Source: Bacteroidales bacterium (GTDB taxonomy: Bacteria > Bacteroidota > Bacteroidia > Bacteroidales > UBA10428). Taken from it: a DNA stretch of 58,506 nt. The position numbers and the translations under genes are program-made. The DNA lies in the NCBI GenBank assembly GCA_016936215.1, contig JAFGPL010000058.1, positions 1 through 58,506 on the forward strand. The letters are read 5' to 3'. This document shows positions 12,785 to 29,247 of this stretch, one piece after another (the first letter of the stretch is position 1; every line of letters begins with the position of its first letter). Below the pieces are notes generated by a model. It worked only from the letters and a program-made list of their open reading frames with translations, was not told where the DNA came from and made no database searches.

Positions 12785-13462
12785 TTAATATTTACCAAAA
12801 GTAGCCTGTACCCCGAATGATATTATAAATGGCTGGTAATTGAACTCAAGATACTGTTCGTTGATTGGTATTGCAAAACCAAACTGTAACATTGTTTTTA
12901 CATGCTTGTAACCTGCTTTAAAAGTAACAGCCGGCTCCCACATATAGCCGGTATTGCTCGCACTGTGTTGGTTAAGGTTAACCATTGTAAACCTTGAAGC
13001 GAGGTTTGCATCAAAGATTTCGGTGGTAACACCTATAGATGGCTGCAGGAACACACGTTTCGATTCAACATTCGCAAAAGAAGTCCATAATTCGTTGTCA
13101 AATTCAGACTTCAATCTACCGGTGCCAAAGCCCCCATATATTTCAAATAATACATTATCAGTAACTTTGGTATAATAACCCGCCCCTAATTCTATAAAAT
13201 AGTGTTTGTGAAAGCTTTCTGTTGAATCTGAGGTTTTGTTGGCAAAACTTCCGTTGGCCATTAACCCAATATGGTCAGTTACCGTATAGGCTATCTGCGG
13301 ATCGAAACCGGCAGTGCCTGTATTCAGGCTAACCTGAAATTCATTCTGGTGGTCTAACATTGGCGTATTGAGAACATTGGGTACATATGCCGGGGCACAT
13401 GAAGAGAAATAAGCGAGGGTAAGAATAAGCAATGTGGTTTGACTGTGGATTTTGGTGTTCAT
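12785..13462 (-). CDS. outer-membrane beta-barrel protein with lipoprotein signal, unknown function
   Basis: This 225-residue protein is not assigned to a named family. It begins with a lipoprotein signal (LAYFSSC, Cys near residue 22). Alternating hydrophobic/polar strands with aromatic girdles follow (for example FIELGAGYYTKVTDNVLFEIYGGFGTG), ending with FIISFGVQATFGKY, whose last strand resembles a small 8-10-strand barrel. It is probably a lipid-anchored or secreted barrel in the outer membrane. It is divergent from the LytS-type kinase at 13659, with a tandem 9-bp repeat in the shared upstream region. That arrangement hints at common control but does not prove it. Confidence 0.7.
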   Translation of the reverse strand: MNTKIHSQTTLLILTLAYFSSCAPAYVPNVLNTPMLDHQNEFQVSLNTGTAGFDPQIAYTVTDHIGLMANGSFANKTSDSTESFHKHYFIELGAGYYTKVTDNVLFEIYGGFGTGRLKSEFDNELWTSFANVESKRVFLQPSIGVTTEIFDANLASRFTMVNLNQHSASNTGYMWEPAVTFKAGYKHVKTMLQFGFAIPINEQYLEFNYQPFIISFGVQATFGKY

Positions 13463-13658: not shown

Positions 13659-14777
13659 ATGATGGTAGATAAAAAAGAAAAATCCTGGCGTTTTTTCACT
13701 GGTTTGCCATACCTGCAAGTATTTATGCATTGTGCAGTATGGGTTTTGCTTTTTATGCTCAATTATTTTATTGTAAGTAATTACCCGGTAACATTCCGCA
13801 CCGGTTTTCATGTAAAAATATGGTTGATTTATATTGCAATGTTCTATATCAACCTTCTTTTGCTAATGCCATATTTTTTATTCAGGAAAAAAATACTTTT
13901 TTACCTGCTTTTCTCAGTTATTTTAATTGTTGCAGCCAATTACCTGCGTGTTGATATTGAGAGAAAATATTTCAGGGAAGAAATTGTAATGAGAAGAAGT
14001 CCTGAAAGGCCCCCGCCGCGATTCGGGTCACCGGGGCCAATGCCTGACAAATCACTTCGCAGGTTCATTTTTCCTTTTTTTGGCAGGGGAATGGTTTCAT
14101 TTTACGGTATACTCTTGATGTTTGCTACAAGCACCTCTATCGGTCTGATTTTCAAATGGCAGGAAAGTGAGAAAAAAAGGACAGAAACAGAAAAAGAAAA
14201 GCTCTTTGCAGAGCTTTCTTATCTTAAAAAACAGGTTAACCCCCACTTTCTTTTCAATGCGCTTAACAACATCTATTCACTCAGCCTCAACAAATCGGGA
14301 AAAACAACCCAGGCGGTGTTAAAGCTCTCCTCAATACTCAGGTACATGCTCTACGAGTCAAACAAAAAACAGGTGAGCCTGAAGAGTGAAATAGAAACAA
14401 TCAATGATTATATTGAATTGCAAAAACTTAGATTTACCGACAAAGTTACTGTTATATTTGAATTAATCGGAGACCCTTCTGATTTCCAGATAGAGCCGTT
14501 GCTGTTACTGCCGGTAATTGAAAACGCTTTTAAATTCGGCGCCGACAATATAAATCCCTCTGCAATACATATCCTGCTGAAAATTGATGAATGGCTTGAT
14601 GTGAAGATCGTGAACAATATTGTGCAGAGAACTGATAAAAGCAATGATGATTGTGGTATTGGGATGAGCAATATAAAGCGGAGGCTTGAGCTACTATATC
14701 CAGAAGATCATATGTTTACATATGGTGAGGAAAATGATGTTTTTACAGTGCATTTATCATTTAAGCTTAAAAGATGA
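13659..14777 (+). CDS. LytS/YehU-family membrane sensor histidine kinase
   Basis: This 372-residue kinase has four N-terminal hydrophobic segments (about 20-40, 52-75, 79-94 and 142-165), with a Pro-rich stretch at 113-130 between the last two. A short coiled linker leads to the His_kinase (LytS) domain. The phosphorylated His is in KKQVNPHFLFNALNN at about residue 196, the N-box is LLPVIENAFKFG, and a G-box is at GIGMSNIKRRLELL. It has no large extracellular domain, so any signal is likely sensed in or at the membrane. The stop overlaps the start of the LytTR regulator at 14774 by 4 bases (ATGA), so the two are translationally coupled. The start could be either of two adjacent ATGs. Confidence 0.93.
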   Translation: MMVDKKEKSWRFFTGLPYLQVFMHCAVWVLLFMLNYFIVSNYPVTFRTGFHVKIWLIYIAMFYINLLLLMPYFLFRKKILFYLLFSVILIVAANYLRVDIERKYFREEIVMRRSPERPPPRFGSPGPMPDKSLRRFIFPFFGRGMVSFYGILLMFATSTSIGLIFKWQESEKKRTETEKEKLFAELSYLKKQVNPHFLFNALNNIYSLSLNKSGKTTQAVLKLSSILRYMLYESNKKQVSLKSEIETINDYIELQKLRFTDKVTVIFELIGDPSDFQIEPLLLLPVIENAFKFGADNINPSAIHILLKIDEWLDVKIVNNIVQRTDKSNDDCGIGMSNIKRRLELLYPEDHMFTYGEENDVFTVHLSFKLKR

Positions 14778-15493
14778 ATTGTATAGCCATTGATGACGAA
14801 CCACTCGCGCTTGATGTAATAAAAGATTTTGCATCAAAAATGCCGGTTATAAATCTTATCTCGGTTTGCACCAGTGCGGTTGATGCAATAAGTATACTTC
14901 ACGAAAAAAAAATTGACCTTATTTTTCTTGATATTCAGATGCCGCACATTACGGGACTTGATTTTCTAAAAGTATTAAATGAGCCCCCAATGGTGATATT
15001 TACCACGGCATTTTCCGACCATGCCCTTCAAGGATTTGAATTAAATGCTGTTGATTACCTTTTAAAGCCTTTCTCGTTCGAGAGGTTTCTTAAAGCGGTT
15101 CATAAAGCATTGCAAATATTTACAATGAAGCAATCTTTGCTGGCGGCTGTAAAAAGCACACCTGCAGATGATAATGCTGACTTTATGATGGTAAAGGTTG
15201 AATATAGCATGATAAGGCTGGATTTAAGTAAAGTTTTATATATCGAAGGGCTCAAAGACTATGTTAAAATCTACTCGGGAGGCAGGCCCCTTCTTACCAA
15301 GACTACAATGAAGAACCTGGAAGAAAAGCTTCCTTTGGGGAAATTCATAAGGGTTCACAAATCGTTTATCATTTCTTTATCGAAAATTGATTCGATTGAA
15401 AACAACAGGATCAGAATCGGTGAAAAATATATTCCGGTTGGAAACCAATACCGGCAGGTTTTTTATGGTTTAGTCGAGAAGATTAAACTATGA
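14774..15493 (+). CDS. LytTR-family response regulator
   Basis: This 239-residue regulator has an N-terminal receiver with acidic residues in AIDDEPLALDV and the phospho-acceptor Asp in LIFLDIQMPHITG (near residue 54). Conserved Thr and Lys occur in FTTAFSDHA and DYLLKPFSFERF. Residues about 135-238 are a LytTR DNA-binding domain (KVLYIEGLKDYVKIYSGG, then FIRVHKSFIISLSKI). It pairs with the kinase directly upstream. LytTR regulators usually bind two imperfect direct repeats about 20 bases apart. Its targets are unknown, but the neighbouring envelope genes at 12785 and 15504-20971 are the obvious first candidates. Confidence 0.93.
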   Translation: MNCIAIDDEPLALDVIKDFASKMPVINLISVCTSAVDAISILHEKKIDLIFLDIQMPHITGLDFLKVLNEPPMVIFTTAFSDHALQGFELNAVDYLLKPFSFERFLKAVHKALQIFTMKQSLLAAVKSTPADDNADFMMVKVEYSMIRLDLSKVLYIEGLKDYVKIYSGGRPLLTKTTMKNLEEKLPLGKFIRVHKSFIISLSKIDSIENNRIRIGEKYIPVGNQYRQVFYGLVEKIKL

Positions 15494-15503
15494 TTTTGAC
15501 CTT

Positions 15504-16739
15504 TTAATCATACCTTGATTTTATAAACCAGCGGTCTTGCAGCGTAAAATTCACATGTGCGGCAAAATAGTTTTCCCTAATCAGGTTGTTTTTTAATGTT
15601 CCGTTTATTCCGTATTCAAATGCCAGGTTTATTATGCTAAGCTCTCTTTTCATCGGAATACCTATCCCGCAGGTAAACGAACTGCTGTTAACACGGGTTT
15701 CGTCAATGACCAGGTAAGATGTAAGGAAATTTATTCCAAAACGATAATATAAAAGGTTTAACCCCTGGTCTTTATATCCTTTTTTTGGGGTATATTCAAA
15801 CCCTGCCGATAATCGTTCACTATCTCGTGTGGAAAGCATCGGGTTTTTAAATCTTGCCGAAGACCATTTTTCAGTTTTGTAATCAATGCCCAGCCTGAAC
15901 TTTTCTGTTTGTTCAATTCCTATGCCAATACCGAATTTTAAGGGTATATTGAATTTGGTCTCATCACCATTGATAATTATGGTGTCACTCGCGTATGCCA
16001 GCAATTGTTCGTTACTTGTAGTCAGCGAAGTTTTATTTCCAAATATAACCCCGGCCGAATACCTCATTTTACCATGTTCAAAATTGTACTGTAATCCATA
16101 ATCAAAATAAAGGTTATTGAAAAAGTATTTATTGGAAAGGACACATTCACTAAAGTAGCTGTTCTGCTCAATAATTTCCTGTTGTTCAATATTGCCGAAA
16201 AGATACGAGACATGAATGCCTGCAGACAGGTTTTTGAACAGCCTGACTGCATTACCGAAATAAAACTGGTTAATACCCCCGGTGCCGGTATATGTTTTGT
16301 TGAGGGAGGTGGTACTTCCTTCAACCGTTTCATCTGTATTTATGCTATAACCGACACTACTCACAGGGACAATCCCCAGGCTTGCCGACCAGTTTTTTCT
16401 TACCCTTAACCCCAAGGCAAGGTACCTGATATTGCCATCAATTTTTGATTGATATAATTGATTGGTTTTAAAGCTTGTATAGGCACCGAAAAAACCAAAC
16501 TCAAACATAAACCTTAAACTGTCTATCCCTGCGTATGAGGCCGGGTTTGTGTTGTTCAGGTATTTATCTGAAGAAAAGGCAATACCTGTGCCCCCCATTG
16601 CCCGCAACGCACCAAAACCATTATCCTGAATTTGTCCGGCGGCAAAAATCGTATATGGGGAGCTCGTTATCTGCGCATGTGTTATAAGGTAAAATACGAG
16701 CAGGCTGAGACAGATGAGTATTTTTCTTTTGTATAGCAT
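15504..16739 (-). CDS. outer-membrane beta-barrel protein, FadL/PorV-like, partner of DUF4270 gene
   Basis: This 411-residue protein has a signal peptide ending in THAQ near residue 22. It continues with SSPYTIFAAGQIQDNG and ALRAMGGTGIAFSS, a start typical of Bacteroidota outer-membrane proteins of the PorV/OmpP1 type that begin with 'MGG(T/A)..A'. The rest is alternating strand sequence that ends in a charged tail (DRWFIKSRYD) rather than the usual aromatic residue. No enzyme motif is seen. It starts 10 bases after the DUF4270 lipoprotein gene on the same strand, so the two almost certainly form an operon. This suggests an outer-membrane pore or platform working with the lipoprotein; the substrate is unknown. 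Confidence 0.7.
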   Translation of the reverse strand: MLYKRKILICLSLLVFYLITHAQITSSPYTIFAAGQIQDNGFGALRAMGGTGIAFSSDKYLNNTNPASYAGIDSLRFMFEFGFFGAYTSFKTNQLYQSKIDGNIRYLALGLRVRKNWSASLGIVPVSSVGYSINTDETVEGSTTSLNKTYTGTGGINQFYFGNAVRLFKNLSAGIHVSYLFGNIEQQEIIEQNSYFSECVLSNKYFFNNLYFDYGLQYNFEHGKMRYSAGVIFGNKTSLTTSNEQLLAYASDTIIINGDETKFNIPLKFGIGIGIEQTEKFRLGIDYKTEKWSSARFKNPMLSTRDSERLSAGFEYTPKKGYKDQGLNLLYYRFGINFLTSYLVIDETRVNSSSFTCGIGIPMKRELSIINLAFEYGINGTLKNNLIRENYFAAHVNFTLQDRWFIKSRYD

Positions 16740-16749
16740 ATAATCTGAT

Positions 16750-18063
16750 TTAATAAGCCAGGTAAATTATTCTGAGTACCGGGAACATATTGCTCCTTTC
16801 AAGTATAAGCCTTTCGAAGGTTGTATAAAGGTAGTCGGGATGCAGTGCGACTGCTATGGATCTTTCGGAATCAAAATAAGCATCTGAGATTTCATCAAGC
16901 ATATAGGAGGTTATATCGAAGGCATAGTATGCGTTATCATGATAAAGGTCATCGCTTACATAAGATGCAGTAATCAGGTTGCCATCGCTGGTATAAAAGG
17001 CGCTTTCCACACGGTTATACTTGTCGAGGGTAAGTATTGCAAGGTTCTGTGGAAGTTTAAATTCCAGGTAGCTATAGTTGTGTGGCCTGAGTACTATTTC
17101 TGCACGCAGCAGACGGGTATTTTCCGATAGCAGAAAATTGTGAAAATAGGGAATGCTTATTTTCGTGAGCAGGCCGGTTACTCCCTGAAGGTAAGAACAA
17201 TTTCCCGTTAGGGAAGAGGAAATATCTTCTTTTTGCGATTGAAGAAGCTGCAGGGGTGTTCCATTAAAATCTGTAACTATATTATTGTATTGTAATTCGC
17301 TGCTGGTAAGAAGAAAATCGGTGTAAACTGCTTCAACGGTTTCACCATACCTGTGTGAGAAAATCCTTAAAAAAATTTCACCTGCCCCGGCTTTGAAACC
17401 GATGATGGCTGACGGATTGTTTTCGTCTGGCGCAATGCAAATCCCCGGTAAATATGCCCGGAAAGTTTCCTGCGAAGAGAATAATTCGGAATTATCTACT
17501 ACCAGTTGCCAGAGTTCTTTGCCAAAATCATCGCCAATTCTTATGGAAACCGAATCAATGCTGTTAGGCATTGGACAGAAGGCTTTTTCACCAATTAATC
17601 CGGTGCGGCATTCGGTTTTGTTAATGTTATAGCAGTTACCGTCTGCATCCGGGTCAAGGTTTTCAAGCAGGGGAAATACTTTTATACTGTTTATCTTGTT
17701 TGTGTCGCCATAGCTGTATCCTGTGTATTTTAGAATTAGTACGGTAGAATCGTAAATATCCTCTTCGTCAAGATTTATTTCGGGCAGGCCAAGTTCAAAA
17801 TAGCTTCTGCTTGAAACAAAACCGAATAAACTATCAGCATACGAACCGCATAAGGCTGTTTCTGTTCCTGAAGTTATAAACGAATCGAGCATTACAGTTG
17901 AGATATTCAGTGAAAATGAATCGCACAGCACCACGGCGGACTTTGACTCAATAAAATCTTTTCCGATATAAAAGTCATCGTCCGATGAGTTGCAGGAGAT
18001 GAAGGCTAAAAATATTGACAGTTGCAAAAAGATGTTTCTTTTAAATATACTTAAACCGTTCAT
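16750..18063 (-). CDS. DUF4270-family lipoprotein
   Basis: The ATG at 18063 gives a 437-residue protein with a clean lipoprotein signal (IFLAFISC) followed by an acidic stretch, as in lipoproteins that Bacteroidota display on the cell surface. Just after it comes the pattern typical of DUF4270: a region like VMLDSFITSGTETALCGSYADSLFG, where a Ser/Thr-rich segment leads into 'GSY.D..FG'. It is rich in beta strands throughout and has no catalytic motif that I recognise. DUF4270 has no established function. It heads an operon with the barrel at 15504 and is divergent from the Kelch lipoprotein at 18330, with a perfect 13-bp inverted repeat between them. Confidence 0.75.
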   Translation of the reverse strand: MNGLSIFKRNIFLQLSIFLAFISCNSSDDDFYIGKDFIESKSAVVLCDSFSLNISTVMLDSFITSGTETALCGSYADSLFGFVSSRSYFELGLPEINLDEEDIYDSTVLILKYTGYSYGDTNKINSIKVFPLLENLDPDADGNCYNINKTECRTGLIGEKAFCPMPNSIDSVSIRIGDDFGKELWQLVVDNSELFSSQETFRAYLPGICIAPDENNPSAIIGFKAGAGEIFLRIFSHRYGETVEAVYTDFLLTSSELQYNNIVTDFNGTPLQLLQSQKEDISSSLTGNCSYLQGVTGLLTKISIPYFHNFLLSENTRLLRAEIVLRPHNYSYLEFKLPQNLAILTLDKYNRVESAFYTSDGNLITASYVSDDLYHDNAYYAFDITSYMLDEISDAYFDSERSIAVALHPDYLYTTFERLILERSNMFPVLRIIYLAY

Positions 18064-18132
18064 ATTATTTAATTTCAGGCAAAGCAACCTTAAATTTCTA
18101 TTTTGAGGAAACAGAGTATACCAACAGGCTTA

Positions 18133-18249
18133 TTCAGTAGACAAAAAAAGCAAGAAGTGCTATAATCTTTAGAATATCAGTGATATAATAAGGTGGCATC
18201 AGTAACACTATTATAAAAATCATTTACATTACATTGTTTGTCTACTGAA
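18133..18249. promoter_or_regulatory. widely spaced perfect 13-bp inverted repeat between DUF4270 and Kelch genes
   Basis: TTCAGTAGACAAA at 18133-18145 and its exact complement TTTGTCTACTGAA at 18237-18249 are separated by 91 bases. The pair sits inside the 266-base divergent region between the DUF4270 lipoprotein and the Kelch lipoprotein, one arm towards each gene. It could be a pair of operator sites for one regulator. Confidence 0.55.
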
Positions 18250-18294
18250 ATCATTATTTCATCCATTAGGTTTTTTAGTGACCGTTGGACAGTT

Positions 18295-18302
18295 TATGTT
18301 TG
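18295..18302 (+). promoter_or_regulatory. -7 promoter element TATGTTTG before the Kelch gene
   Basis: TATGTTTG matches TAnnTTTG and lies 28 bases upstream of the Kelch ATG. A 9-base match to the LytTR half-site consensus (ACAGTTTAT, 18289-18297) overlaps it, but such a match is expected by chance in a region this size. Confidence 0.4.
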
Positions 18303-18329
18303 CGCCAAATGTTGATAATATCATAAATA

Positions 18330-19355
18330 ATGAAAGAAAAAAAGAAATACACAGAATATCTCAGGTATGCGTTTTTATTGATTTGCAGTGTGATGGTTTT
18401 GATATCTTGCAGCGACGATGATGATGATACCACCGAATATGTGGGCAACTGGGTTGAATTGTCAGACTTTGAAGGTGTAACCCGAAGTGATGCGGTAGCC
18501 TTTAGTATTGGTAATAAAGGATATGTTGGTACCGGTTACGATGGTTACAACAGGTTGAGCGACTTCTGGGAGTATGACCCTGAACTGAATACATGGTTGC
18601 AAAAGGCAGATTTTCCCGGGGCAGCACGTAATGGCGCAGTGGGTTTTAGCATTAATAACAAGGGTTATATAGGAACAGGTTTTAATGGTATAACCCGCAT
18701 GAACGATTTTTGGGAATTCGATCCCGGGTCTAATACCTGGCAAAGAAAAGCCGATTTTGCAGGATCGGCAAGGTACGGGGCTGTTGGCTTTTCGATAGCA
18801 GATAAAGGATACCTGGGCACCGGGTTTGATGGTAATTATCTGAAAGATTTCTGGGAATACGACCCTGCTGCCGATACATGGACCCAGAAAATGAGTGTAG
18901 GTGGCAGCAAGCGCCGGGATGCTTTATCATTTGTGATAGACAGTAAAGGTTACATTTGCACAGGTATCAACAACGGGGTTTATGAGAATGATTTCTGGGA
19001 ATTTGATCCGTTAACCGGTGTCTGGACCGAGAAGAATTCAATTGCGGATGTTTCTTCAGAAGATTTTGATGACGATTATACCATAACAGGTATCAATAAA
19101 GTGGCTTTTTCATTAAGTGGTAGAGGGTTTGTAGCTACCGGCGGCGAAGGTTCTGCCGGTACGCAGGTATGGGAATATGACCCGGTTGCCGATCTCTGGC
19201 AGCAAAAGACTGCCTTTGAAGGAAGCGCAAGGGCCGATGCCGTGGCTTTCACTATCGGCAACCGGGCATATTTAACCACCGGCAGGAGCAGCAGCTACTA
19301 TTTCGACGATCTCTGGGCTTTTAACCCGGATGATGAATATGACTCTTATGATTAA
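18330..19355 (+). CDS. Kelch-repeat surface lipoprotein
   Basis: This 341-residue protein has a lipoprotein signal (VMVLISC, Cys near residue 27) followed by SDDDDD, an acidic run typical of export to the cell surface in Bacteroidota. At least six Kelch-type repeats of about 48 residues follow, each with a core like AVGFSI.NKGYIGTGF and a second half like FWEYDP..NTW..K. Together they probably form a six-bladed beta propeller covering the whole mature protein. No catalytic residues are obvious, so binding is more likely than catalysis. The 3' end overlaps the DUF4907 gene, and the gene is divergent from DUF4270; the grouping suggests one surface complex. Confidence 0.88.
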   Translation: MKEKKKYTEYLRYAFLLICSVMVLISCSDDDDDTTEYVGNWVELSDFEGVTRSDAVAFSIGNKGYVGTGYDGYNRLSDFWEYDPELNTWLQKADFPGAARNGAVGFSINNKGYIGTGFNGITRMNDFWEFDPGSNTWQRKADFAGSARYGAVGFSIADKGYLGTGFDGNYLKDFWEYDPAADTWTQKMSVGGSKRRDALSFVIDSKGYICTGINNGVYENDFWEFDPLTGVWTEKNSIADVSSEDFDDDYTITGINKVAFSLSGRGFVATGGEGSAGTQVWEYDPVADLWQQKTAFEGSARADAVAFTIGNRAYLTTGRSSSYYFDDLWAFNPDDEYDSYD

Positions 19356-19674
19356 AGGTAACAGAAAAAAGGGAGCAGTAGTTCTTATTACAATTACCTT
19401 TATCCTGGTTGCATTTTTAGGTTTTTTAAAATACCCAAAAAACCAGGTTTTCAGCTATTGCTTGTTCATTTCAGAGAAGGGATGGGGGTATGAAATACGT
19501 TGTAATAACAAGCCATTTATTTATCAGCAATATATCCCGGTGTTGCAAGGCAACAAAGCCTTTCCTGATAAAAAAGCTGCGAGGAAAGCAGCAAAAACGG
19601 TAACATCAAGGCTAAACAACAACAAACCTCCCCGTCTTACCCTAAAGGATATTAATGATTTAGATCTTCATTAA
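19348..19674 (+). CDS. small DUF4907-type membrane-anchored protein
   Basis: The ATG at 19348 overlaps the Kelch stop by 8 bases and gives 108 residues. Further ATGs at 19330 and 19333 would add six residues. One hydrophobic segment (about residues 10-26) is followed by a small domain with GWGYEIRCNNKPFIYQQYIPVLQG and FPDKKAARKAAKTVTSRL. This matches the DUF4907 pattern as I know it: a 'GYEI...G.PFI.Q..IP...G..GF' strand region, then a helix. It is translationally coupled to the Kelch gene. DUF4907 has no known function; it is probably periplasmic and tethered to the inner membrane. Confidence 0.75.
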   Translation: MIKGNRKKGAVVLITITFILVAFLGFLKYPKNQVFSYCLFISEKGWGYEIRCNNKPFIYQQYIPVLQGNKAFPDKKAARKAAKTVTSRLNNNKPPRLTLKDINDLDLH

Positions 19675-19729
19675 TTTTTTATTTGAGTAAACCTGTTTTA
19701 ACCAGTTTTTACTAAAAGTGAACTTAACT

Positions 19730-20971
19730 TTAAGGCCTGGATAAATTGTGTGTAACGCCAATGCAAATCCCGCTGAAATCAGCCTGTCCGAAATTGGCAT
19801 TGATGCTTGCACCTACGAATATATTATTGCGTGGTTTCTTTTGTGTATTTATCAGGTAATAATTCAATGCAATTCTTGTATTGAAGAGTTTTTTCAGCCA
19901 GTAATCGAAATCAATCTCTCCTTCAAGGGTATTGTAATGTCTTTTAAAATAAGGCTTATAAAGGTTTAATCCTCCGGCTATGTCCATACCTATATGACCG
20001 GTGAGAAATTCGCAATTAATAAAGAAATATAGATTTGAAGCGTTGAGCCATGGCCTGTCGGAGTATAAAGAATCGGCAGGGTTAAGAATATGGTGGTGGT
20101 ACTGGTGATAAATTCTTCCTGCCAGTCCTGCACCAACCCTGATATGTTCCTTTAAAAGCATCCCTGCTGAAACAGTTACCGAGTTAACCAGACGTTTTTC
20201 ACCGCCAATGGGTCCTGTGGCGCTGCCATATTCATGCATTCCAATACCTGTTCTTACCATGGCATAATAGCGCTTTTTTCTTTCTGCCTCGACCCTGTAT
20301 TGCCGGGGGTGAAAACCGGGATGAATAGGGTGCGTAAAGTATTTTACCGAGATGCCGATAGCAGCCTGGTTTAAACCTACATTTGGCAATTGGATATGAC
20401 CATTGGAATTATGCATGTACCCGGCACCCAGGTTCAATGATAAACGTGAACCGGTATAAACTGAATAATACATGAATGACTGAAACGACCATGTAAAATG
20501 TGAACCGATAACCAGGTTGTCTGGATTTTCTGAAGCATCGTAAAACCTGGTAAAATAAGATCCCCCCAAGGCAATTTTAAAGAAGACTGAATGATTTATC
20601 CTGTTTAATACATTAAATGTAATATAAGGCACAACAGAATACTGGTCTCCGAATACATTCCGGTTACCGGGATTGGCCCTGCTGATTGTAATACCGGTAA
20701 ACGGAAAGTTGTAGAATGAAGCCCATTTTTTATTGGTTGTAGTTTGAAACCACCCTAAATTTAAAGCCAAAGTATGGCTACCTCCGGTTTCAGGAAAATC
20801 TGAATGATTAGGGTATACAAAACCTGCAAGGTATTCCGGCTCAATAAAGAAAACGGGCTTTTTTTCAACTACCGGATCCTGAGCGGCAATTAGGTTTACA
20901 TTGCAAATACAGAACAGAAAAAACAAGTGCAGGTGTGTTGAATATCTCATTTCAGATGGTAATATTTTCAT
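19730..20971 (-). CDS. PagL-like acyloxyacyl hydrolase (lipid A deacylase) homologue
   Basis: This 413-residue secreted outer-membrane protein has a signal peptide ending near LIAAQ (about residue 30). In the first half a segment reads YMHNSNGHIQLPNVGLNQ. It resembles the active-site region of PagL (H-x-S-N-G followed by P-N-x-G-x-N), whose His and Ser are catalytic in lipid A 3-O-deacylation. PagL is only about 170 residues; this protein has a further 190 or so barrel-like residues with repeated Tyr/Asn strands. It may remodel the lipopolysaccharide, but substrate and activity are inferred. It converges on the DUF4907 gene. An ATG at 20950 is an alternative start that still leaves a signal peptide. 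Confidence 0.65.
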   Translation of the reverse strand: MKILPSEMRYSTHLHLFFLFCICNVNLIAAQDPVVEKKPVFFIEPEYLAGFVYPNHSDFPETGGSHTLALNLGWFQTTTNKKWASFYNFPFTGITISRANPGNRNVFGDQYSVVPYITFNVLNRINHSVFFKIALGGSYFTRFYDASENPDNLVIGSHFTWSFQSFMYYSVYTGSRLSLNLGAGYMHNSNGHIQLPNVGLNQAAIGISVKYFTHPIHPGFHPRQYRVEAERKKRYYAMVRTGIGMHEYGSATGPIGGEKRLVNSVTVSAGMLLKEHIRVGAGLAGRIYHQYHHHILNPADSLYSDRPWLNASNLYFFINCEFLTGHIGMDIAGGLNLYKPYFKRHYNTLEGEIDFDYWLKKLFNTRIALNYYLINTQKKPRNNIFVGASINANFGQADFSGICIGVTHNLSRP

Positions 20972-28050: not shown

Positions 28051-29247
28051 TTACAATATTTTAAGGCCAATCATTTCAATATCATCAGTGATTTCTGAAC
28101 TCTGAAGGGTGTTTTTAATAAGTTCCCTGAATAAGACTTCCTGTTTTTTCATATTGTTTTTTGTTTCTTCTGGTAAAAGTTTAGAAAACGACAGACAGTT
28201 GTTTTCAAAATAATGGTGTCTTGTTAGAATTTCGGACAATTTACCATTAAAAATATAGATGACTGCTTTTGGTGAACAGGTGTAAGATGCTGGATTAAAC
28301 CGGTGCTTAATATCAGGAAAATGATCAATCTGGTTCAGGGTAATATGTTTAAATTCTGTGCCGGTAAACAGCATTATGTCCTGGTTAAATCCCGAAAGCT
28401 GCAAATGTCCTGAATCTTTATCAAGAATTGACAGAGACAGGTTTACCTCCGGATTTTTAAGGGAGGTTGTTTCTGCATGCATGAGTTTTTCTGAAAGGAA
28501 GTTATTAAGTTGTCTTACCATGTCTGCAGCATCAGCATATTGTCCCGATTGAATGGTCCTGTTCAGAAAAGCAGATATTAATATTTTCAGCAGGGTATCT
28601 TGTACTTTTGCTGCTTTGCTTTGGATGTAAAGTATAAAACTTTTGTTTTTACAGCCTGCAAGCCAGAAAAAGCTTTTTTCGCTGCTGCCCGATGTGCCGG
28701 TGATATGAAAAAAGTCACCAAGTGATTGCTGTATCTGGTTTTTTAATGGCCGTTGCGCTTCCAGGATAAGGTTTGTTAAATAAAAAACCTCATCTTTTTC
28801 ATCAATTTCTCTCGTTATTATGCCGGGCTTTGAAGAAACAATTTCACCAATGCCCAACTGCAAAAGGTTTTTAACTTTGGTTTCAATCTCTATCCTGTCA
28901 AATGGTTTGGATATATAGTCATTGGCCCCTGCTTCAAGCCCGCGTTTTCGCGAATCACGGTCATCCAGCGCTGTGATAAGAATAATGGGGATTCCTTTTA
29001 ATGTATCATTGTCCCGCATTTTTTTGCATACTTCAAACCCGTCCATTTCAGGCATCATAACATCCATAAGCACAATGTCGGGAGTATTATTCTCTATGTA
29101 GTGCAATGCATTTTTGCCATTATCGGCAAAATCCAGTTGATAATTATCAGATAAAAATATTGCTTCAAGAAGCTGTCTTCCAACAGGTTCGTCATCAACA
29201 ATCAGGAGTTTACTTTTTGTAGTCACGGACAGAGATTTTATTGACAC
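28051..29247 (-). CDS. response regulator with receiver and a decayed SpoIIE/PP2C-like domain
   Basis: This 398-residue protein starts with a GTG at 29247. Residues about 14-130 are a good receiver domain: acidic residues in LLIVDDEP, phospho-acceptor Asp in DIVLMDVMMPEMDG, Thr in LITALD, and Lys in SKPFDRIE. Residues about 180-398 follow the order of a SpoIIE-type PP2C phosphatase: ADMVRQLNNFLSEKLM, SLSILDKDSGHLQLSGFNQ, YIFNGKLSEI and the closing DDIEMIGLKIL. The metal-binding Asp positions in its first half seem lost (FILYIQSKAAKV instead of a 'ADVSGHG'-like motif). It is probably a non-catalytic or altered phosphatase domain, perhaps a binding module. The gene heads a tight cluster with the BamA-like barrel and is divergent from the TerB-ABC transporter. 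Confidence 0.8.
   Translation of the reverse strand: MSIKSLSVTTKSKLLIVDDEPVGRQLLEAIFLSDNYQLDFADNGKNALHYIENNTPDIVLMDVMMPEMDGFEVCKKMRDNDTLKGIPIILITALDDRDSRKRGLEAGANDYISKPFDRIEIETKVKNLLQLGIGEIVSSKPGIITREIDEKDEVFYLTNLILEAQRPLKNQIQQSLGDFFHITGTSGSSEKSFFWLAGCKNKSFILYIQSKAAKVQDTLLKILISAFLNRTIQSGQYADAADMVRQLNNFLSEKLMHAETTSLKNPEVNLSLSILDKDSGHLQLSGFNQDIMLFTGTEFKHITLNQIDHFPDIKHRFNPASYTCSPKAVIYIFNGKLSEILTRHHYFENNCLSFSKLLPEETKNNMKKQEVLFRELIKNTLQSSEITDDIEMIGLKIL

Follow-up and report, generated by a model that had tools for sequence, protein, structure and literature searches.

The window, a 58,506-nt stretch of DNA from a Bacteroidales bacterium of the UBA10428 lineage (contig JAFGPL010000058.1, assembly GCA_016936215.1), carries an envelope locus in which two genes related to subunits of the Bacteroidota β-barrel assembly machinery (BAM) lie beside a two-component system and divergent from genes for a Kelch lipoprotein and a DUF4907 protein. 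The LytS-type sensor histidine kinase (13659..14777, + strand; PF06580 His_kinase, 92.7 bits) and the LytTR response regulator (14774..15493, +; PF00072 Response_reg and PF04397 LytTR) are coupled by an ATGA overlap; adjacent, and with the required domains over their Pfam cut-offs, they form a LytS/LytTR two-component pair. Tail to tail with the regulator stands bamG2 (15504..16739, −), encoding a FadL-type barrel of the BamG family, and 10 nt further lies bamH2 (16750..18087, −; likely start ATG at 18063-18061), encoding a DUF4270 lipoprotein. A divergent promoter region, read from the sequence and assigned to neither strand (18088..18329), separates bamH2 from kelch (18330..19355, +; PF01344 and PF24681), whose product has a lipobox Cys27 followed by SDDDDD and six kelch-type repeats, counted by eye in an alignment. 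The DUF4907 gene (19330..19674, +; PF16250, 70.3 bits against a cut-off of 25) perhaps starts at 19348. The kelch stop (19353-19355) lies downstream of all four in-frame DUF4907 ATGs (19330, 19333, 19339 and 19348), so the two genes overlap whichever start is used. The initial annotation had described a coupled kinase/regulator pair followed by two divergent gene pairs, with the kelch stop overlapping DUF4907, and its open reading frames (ORFs), coordinates and gene order are all present in the sequence.

BamG and BamH were described in 2025 as subunits of the Bacteroidota BAM complex, BamG being a FadL-family barrel (PMC12611786, PMC12578637). Judged by sequence, the barrel and DUF4270 genes of the window are a second, old pair of BamG/BamH paralogues, BamG2 and BamH2. 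The 411-aa barrel scores 373.8 bits against the BamG equivalog NF053685 (cut-off 250) over residues 23-408, and phmmer comparison with solved BamG chains gives 5e-46 for 9hiv/9hj3, including the B. theta BamG chain, 7e-46 for 9hjm and 1e-40 for 9n2d. After the signal peptide it carries the BamG N-tail motif SSPYTIFAAGQI. A strict form of this tail, SP[YFT][ST], is found in 17 of 18 canonical BamGs and in 65 of 89 BamGs from the conserved gene set described below (the module), and a relaxed pattern recovers a BamG-type tail in 78 of the 89. The DUF4270 lipoprotein scores 104 bits against PF14092 (cut-off 27), and the profile of its family matches the solved BamH chains 9hjm_G (9e-25) and 9n2d_C (2e-12). 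For an AlphaFold2 model of BamH2 (pLDDT 90.2), the first three places among PDB matches go to the solved BamH chains 9hjm_G (TMq 0.65), 9n2d_C (0.60) and 9his_G (0.63), with E-values of 4e-19 to 5e-18. Its lipobox cysteine is followed by NSSDDD, and acidic residues after this cysteine have been described as a signal of surface lipoproteins (PMC12578637). By a simple rule, a lipobox is present in 89 of 95 module BamHs, 53 of which have at least two acidic residues at +1 to +6.

Besides the pair in the window, the genome has another BamG (C55) and another DUF4270 gene (C221), each at its own site; both cluster with canonical sequences in the BamG trees and the first BamH tree, on long branches. 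In the first BamH tree the module side (18 rows) is divided from the canonical side (20 rows, divergent, with 18-20% identity to the first row) by a branch with support of 100/100, and the same support separates 33 module BamHs from 15 canonical sequences plus that of P. gingivalis in the second. The first BamG tree divides 18 module from 18 canonical rows with support of 94/89. The larger trees omit five near-identical genomes of genus g7 and include 12 of 80 loci from the Kelch-seeded scan described below and 8 of 11 extra module loci. The P. gingivalis BAM had been considered as a possible module type (the module profile gives its BamG 305 bits, the canonical profile 288), a candidate rejected since its BamG and BamH group with the canonical Bacteroidaceae type in the trees; PF13568 as the canonical BamG family was a wrong guess and uninformative. 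The module pair thus resembles the Bacteroidota BAM (BamA-D-G-H core; PDB 9n2d, 9hj3, 9hjm) in sequence homology, in the predicted BamH2 fold, in surface-type lipoprotein signals and in the BamG-type tail, but differs in forming a separate paralogue clade, strongly for BamH and less so for BamG, and in being linked together and to Kelch, often also to DUF4907 and LytSR. The canonical bamG and bamH of G230, G091 and G126, in contrast, lie apart from each other, beside coaX and panC. BamG2 and BamH2 have already been named as BamG/BamH homologues in B. theta (Bt1785/Bt1786, a putative operon) and F. johnsoniae (PMC12611786, PMC12578637); the window pair may be orthologous to Bt1785/1786.

By the same simple rule the Kelch orthologues have a lipobox in 89 of 98 cases, and 59 of these have at least two acidic residues at +1 to +6. 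BamI, found in the B. theta and P. gingivalis BAM, is a six-bladed surface-lipoprotein propeller that contacts BamH (PMC12578637). Kelch would likewise be a six-repeat surface propeller, but among the 60 matches listed from a comparison of Kelch with PDB sequences (85 at E ≤ 0.001) there is no BAM chain, so Kelch may be regarded as a BamI analogue at most. The DUF4907 protein consists of a small domain preceded by a membrane helix or a signal sequence, with a lipobox in 17 of 69 family members. Its AlphaFold2 model (pLDDT 90) places a helix at residues 12-32, three strands at 41-66 and helices at 81-96 and 105-110; a search for PDB relatives gave no fold match at E ≤ 0.001, and the best sequence match (E 0.62) is unconvincing. 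The initial annotation had proposed an uncharacterised surface complex. Two products with surface-type lipoprotein signals around a barrel agree with a surface complex, but "uncharacterised" no longer fits, since the barrel is a BamG paralogue and the DUF4270 protein a BamH paralogue.

Co-occurrence of these genes in related genomes, the test that the initial annotation had set for itself, identifies them as a conserved unit. DUF4907 occurs in 18 of 247 Bacteroidota genomes, the phylum of the window, at one copy each; a Kelch gene adjoins it in all 18, and a DUF4270 gene lies within 10 kb in 16. When the neighbourhoods of these 18 loci (19-21 kb each) were compared, the gene clusters common beyond one genus were Kelch (18), BamH2 (16), BamG2 (16), LytS (14), LytTR (14) and DUF4907 itself (16 by ORF picking, 18 by hidden Markov model search), along with one unrelated lipoprotein family that crosses genera in two loci. 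A LytS or LytTR homologue lies within 5 kb of kelch in 14 of these first 18 loci. Two further BamG-DUF4270 pairs without a DUF4907 match (G019, G107) both have Kelch together with LytTR or LytSR, and 12 further loci from one genus yielded 11 modules, all with BamG2, BamH2, Kelch and DUF4907 in the same layout. Locus L132 (G390), with a canonical-type BamG only, was excluded from module counts, and module-type matches in G331, G317, G291, G287, G344, G290 and G278 were left out of the loci compared. Altogether, every module-type BamHG pair in the sampled genomes has Kelch alongside (29/29).

A scan of named genomes seeded with Kelch only, using the best 80 of 580 relatives, gives the same picture. 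In these 80 loci, BamH2 lies within 2 kb of the Kelch orthologue in 79, the exception being a 3-kb contig; BamG2 lies within 8 kb in 74, DUF4907 is present in 53, and LytTR and/or LytS lies within 5 kb in 58. In 15 of the 53 DUF4907-bearing loci, lytS follows the DUF4907 gene within 300 nt, and in 17 of the 80 kelch and bamH2 point in the same direction. Neither Kelch, DUF4907 nor LytSR was found beside 12 linked bamH-bamG pairs of other types or classes, three of these loci being shortened by contig ends, and none of the three occurs in 12 control loci (211 kb).

Several loci depart from the common arrangement. Three tandem Kelch genes precede DUF4907 in G041 (L032 5541-9114) and a single Kelch gene adjoins it in G122 (L035), both without BamG2H2, so the Kelch-DUF4907 pair can exist alone. 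Between bamH2 and kelch, loci of genus g7 (L021-L028, L033) have an additional ORF of roughly 280-300 aa, common to eight of the nine. G330 may contain two modules: a module-type DUF4270 match (L131; G330:C1:6292921) stands about 145 kb away from a complete one, whose own BamH2 is not among the Pfam search matches. A 4.6-kb contig labelled Methanosarcina (L184) carries BamG2-BamH2-Kelch-DUF4907 and is probably a mis-binned bacterial contig.

The breadth of this conservation bears on the possibility that the copies are mostly silent duplicates under weak selection with unrelated neighbours. Such a view could draw on the lack of appreciable expression on rich medium and of any reported phenotype of their own in the parts of PMC12611786 and PMC12578637 drawn on here. 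However, the same gene set, with long open frames, recurs across families and in metagenome-assembled genomes labelled Ignavibacteria, Calditrichaeota, KSB1 and Neomarinimicrobiota, which are among the 80 Kelch-seeded loci, and genomes with only module copies exist. We regard silent duplication as most improbable.

Five genomes have one BamG and one DUF4270 gene, adjacent and of module type: G007, G238, G272 and G392, which are 99-100% complete in 1-6 contigs, and G299, which is 87% complete. Canonical BamG and BamH profiles were run on G007 (2.9 Mb, 2 contigs) and G238 (4.1 Mb, 6 contigs) and return module copies only, apart from a 43-aa bamG stump in G238. In G230, of the same genus as G238, bamG lies between coaX and a TPR-like gene; in the corresponding 227-bp interval of G238, two decayed fragments of bamG remain. 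The first (44 aa, 48% identity, E 5e-8 on a 500-bp target) contains a stop and runs into the end of coaX, and the second matches at E 6e-4 on the same target size. For bamH, the reference sites lie after a glgA-like gene beside panC (G230) and between metK and a glgA-like gene (G126), and at the old syntenic site bamH is missing in both G238 (80-bp gap) and G007 (171-bp gap). Among these neighbours, panC and coaX were named by Pfam and the TPR, glgA-like and metK genes by eye. In both larger trees G272 and G392 are not sisters of G238 and G299, and the canonical-keeping G325, G263 and G304 branch among them. Since these two groups stand apart in the trees, and with G007 in addition, housekeeping bamG and bamH would by count have been lost three times, if the gene tree follows the species tree.

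Incomplete assembly, or divergent canonical genes that escaped detection, could in principle mimic this pattern. Only 87% of G299 is represented, BamH is divergent at the 18-20% identity noted above, the old sites inspected were those of G238 and the bamH site of G007, and in G272, G392 and G299 the search used NF053685 and PF14092 alone. Nevertheless, G272 and G392 are single contigs, each 99% complete, G007 and G238 comprise two and six, the old bamG site of G238 holds a decayed remnant, the bamH sites of G238 and G007 have closed up, and the canonical profiles find nothing but module copies and the stump there. An artefact is therefore quite improbable.

Deletion of BamG failed in all three species in which it was tried, B. 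theta, P. gingivalis and F. johnsoniae, according to the parts of PMC12578637 and PMC12611786 drawn on here. With BamG undeletable wherever tried, the simplest reading of the five genomes is that BamG2/BamH2 would do the essential job there. Two other accounts of the module have to be set against this. The first holds that BamG2H2 and Kelch act apart from BamA, the FadL-like barrel and its two surface lipoproteins binding or importing a hydrophobic or sugar ligand sensed by LytS. Kelch propellers often bind ligands, and a carbohydrate-binding module (8wab, E 1.4e-3) is among the fold matches of the BamH2 model. BamG is itself of the FadL family, and the parts of PMC12611786 and PMC12578637 drawn on do not report BamG2H2 in BAM. 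Against ligand import stand the five genomes in which no other BamG or BamH was found, though BamG resists deletion, and the BamG-type tail in 78 of 89 module BamGs; we consider it unlikely.

The second account keeps the contact with BamA but has BamG2H2 attach to assemble one particular surface complex, perhaps Kelch or an unlinked barrel-lipoprotein pair, with no general replacement. Kelch is indeed a single near-constant partner (79 of the best 80 of 580), and client-specific roles of BamG/BamH are discussed in the part of PMC12611786 drawn on. However, the 18 loci contain no second barrel gene common beyond one genus, and genomes that have only the module would need a general BamG. Such a client-specific attachment is, in our estimate, rather unlikely.

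Of the 24 module genomes in which one or both canonical subunits persist, 23 have a LytS or LytTR homologue no more than 5 kb from kelch, versus none of the five that lack both (Fisher 5e-5 without correction for kinship; 0.005 after collapse by hand to nine and three lineages without the exception G325). Included in the 24 are G286, with a canonical BamH and no canonical BamG seen, and G019, with a second BamG-type match and no second DUF4270 match. In the window, two copies of TTTGTCTACTGAA lie in the divergent promoter region, one about 70 nt upstream of bamH2 (18133..18145, −) and the other about 90 nt upstream of kelch (18237..18249, +). They form a perfect 13-nt inverted pair in the same orientation to each gene, and one in 1000 dinucleotide shuffles contains a pair as long. 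Across 62 divergent intergenic regions GTCTAC has 29 matches in 16 regions, versus 3.2 expected from its whole-locus frequency, and the paired layout in both divergent promoters was read by eye in 10 of the 62. Two other TTGTCTAC sites in the window (38671, 55737) fall inside ORFs. The neighbourhood, the shared promoter element and the loss pattern together suggest that LytTR may control the module. The window pair fits known LytS/LytTR kinase and regulator families and differs in its linkage to a BAM paralogue pair.

Two candidates for the regulatory input were set aside. A direct-repeat LytTR site was sought in the window promoter, where the best direct repeat, of 6 nt, is uninformative. Iron was considered as inducer from the entry for BT1785-86 (in the part of PMC10434189 drawn on), which gives a 3.6-fold increase in low iron; as the adjoining column reads 0.437, the entry was not used. 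In seven loci with a one-direction kelch-bamH2-bamG2 arrangement (L160, L166, L177, L179, L187, L194, L206), LytS and LytTR reach only about 60-105 bits with the module profiles, which may point to more than one recruitment of the sensor.

Taken together, we think it reasonably likely that the locus encodes a second set of BAM surface subunits, one that is exchangeable and probably under regulation. When made, BamG2 and BamH2 would dock on the same BamA in place of BamG and BamH. As in the solved complexes, the N-tail of BamG2 would reach BamA by threading out of the barrel, and the lipid anchor of BamH2 would sit between BamA and BamG2. The Kelch lipoprotein may be a third canopy subunit, its propeller placed like that of BamI, and the membrane-anchored DUF4907 protein might link the complex to the sensor or aid its assembly. 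Some envelope condition would lead LytS/LytTR to induce both divergent operons, bamH2G2 and kelch-DUF4907, perhaps by way of GTCTAC, and the second set could become the sole set as housekeeping bamG and bamH are lost. A more far-reaching version, to which we give somewhat less than an even chance, is an inducible second BAM with its own sensor that swaps the BamA canopy under envelope stress or attack, and that in at least three lineages has become sole, constitutive and sensorless, displacing the housekeeping subunits.

A number of observations weigh against an exchangeable, regulated set. The window BamH2 scores 22.2 bits against the 420-bit cut-off of NF053686, the BamH_fj equivalog for F. 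johnsoniae BamH, which is why the DUF4270 protein is named BamH2 here. The strict SP[YFT][ST] tail is missing in 24 of 89 module BamGs and in 1 of 18 canonical ones. The larger BamG tree supports the module/canonical split at only 70/82 (33 module rows versus 16 canonical and two PDB rows), with three module rows falling off the main cluster in weakly placed positions, so that the split is less certain for BamG. Four of the five genomes that lost the housekeeping copies come from one genus, and loss of bamH alone would prove little, since substitutions in BamA allow cells to tolerate it (PMC12611786, in the part drawn on). LytSR was not found within 5 kb in 22 of the best 80 of 580 loci, some of them at contig ends, and G325 keeps both canonical genes without LytSR within 5 kb. 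LytTR lies near 14 of the 16 GTCTAC regions but also near 45 of the 62 overall; given this baseline, the element supports co-regulation of both arms and not LytTR as its reader.

The published work, in the parts drawn on here, adds further points of the same kind. Proteomics of B. theta did not detect BamG2/BamH2, deleting bamH2 together with bamH gives a stress phenotype similar to that of deleting bamH alone, and the authors argue against a BamG2H2-containing BAM rescuing bamH loss (PMC12578637). The F. johnsoniae copies can be deleted and show no appreciable expression on rich medium (PMC12611786), and no BAM pull-down reported in the literature drawn on contains Kelch.

BamG2 and BamH2 themselves were already named; new here are the linkage to Kelch, DUF4907 and LytSR, the sole-copy genomes, the LytSR loss pattern and the GTCTAC element. 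The main texts of PMC12611786 and PMC12578637 contain no mention of Kelch, DUF or two-component genes, nor that of PMC12611786 of LytTR, and replacement of the canonical copies by BamG2/BamH2 was not found in the parts of either paper drawn on. BamG and BamH are not mentioned in the part of a 2026 review drawn on here (PMC13067283). Open-licence full texts yielded no literature on DUF4907, one paper on DUF4270 and, among the 15 of 137 matches listed, no paper that contains both kelch and BamH. BAM is indispensable to the cell and a target for drugs. The 2025 papers, which established that the Bacteroidota BAM needs BamG and has a surface canopy, assigned no role to the second BamG/BamH pair. 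Should the module prove to be a regulated spare, these bacteria would be able to remodel the side of the machine that faces outwards; Kelch, DUF4907 and LytSR are then the partners to seek, genomes with an apparent swap are known, and DUF4907 gains a context.

Downstream of the module lies a gene for a PagL-like barrel (19730..20971, −; PF09411, 31.2 bits against a cut-off of 23). The initial annotation had included it as a lipid A modifying component of the complex, a role that finds no support in conserved neighbourhood: a PagL-like gene recurs in none of the 17 other loci and none of the 80 Kelch-seeded loci, and we treat it as a neighbour outside the module. Upstream, a 225-aa probable outer-membrane protein (12785-13462, −) has no Pfam family over cut-off and no homologue in the 80 module loci. 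Elsewhere in the window, a Big_2 protein (32-970, +) has a Por_Secre_tail match just below cut-off (25.0 of 27 bits) and is a possible cargo of the type IX secretion system, and a 398-aa response regulator (28051-29247, −) adjoins a 661-aa protein without a Pfam family.

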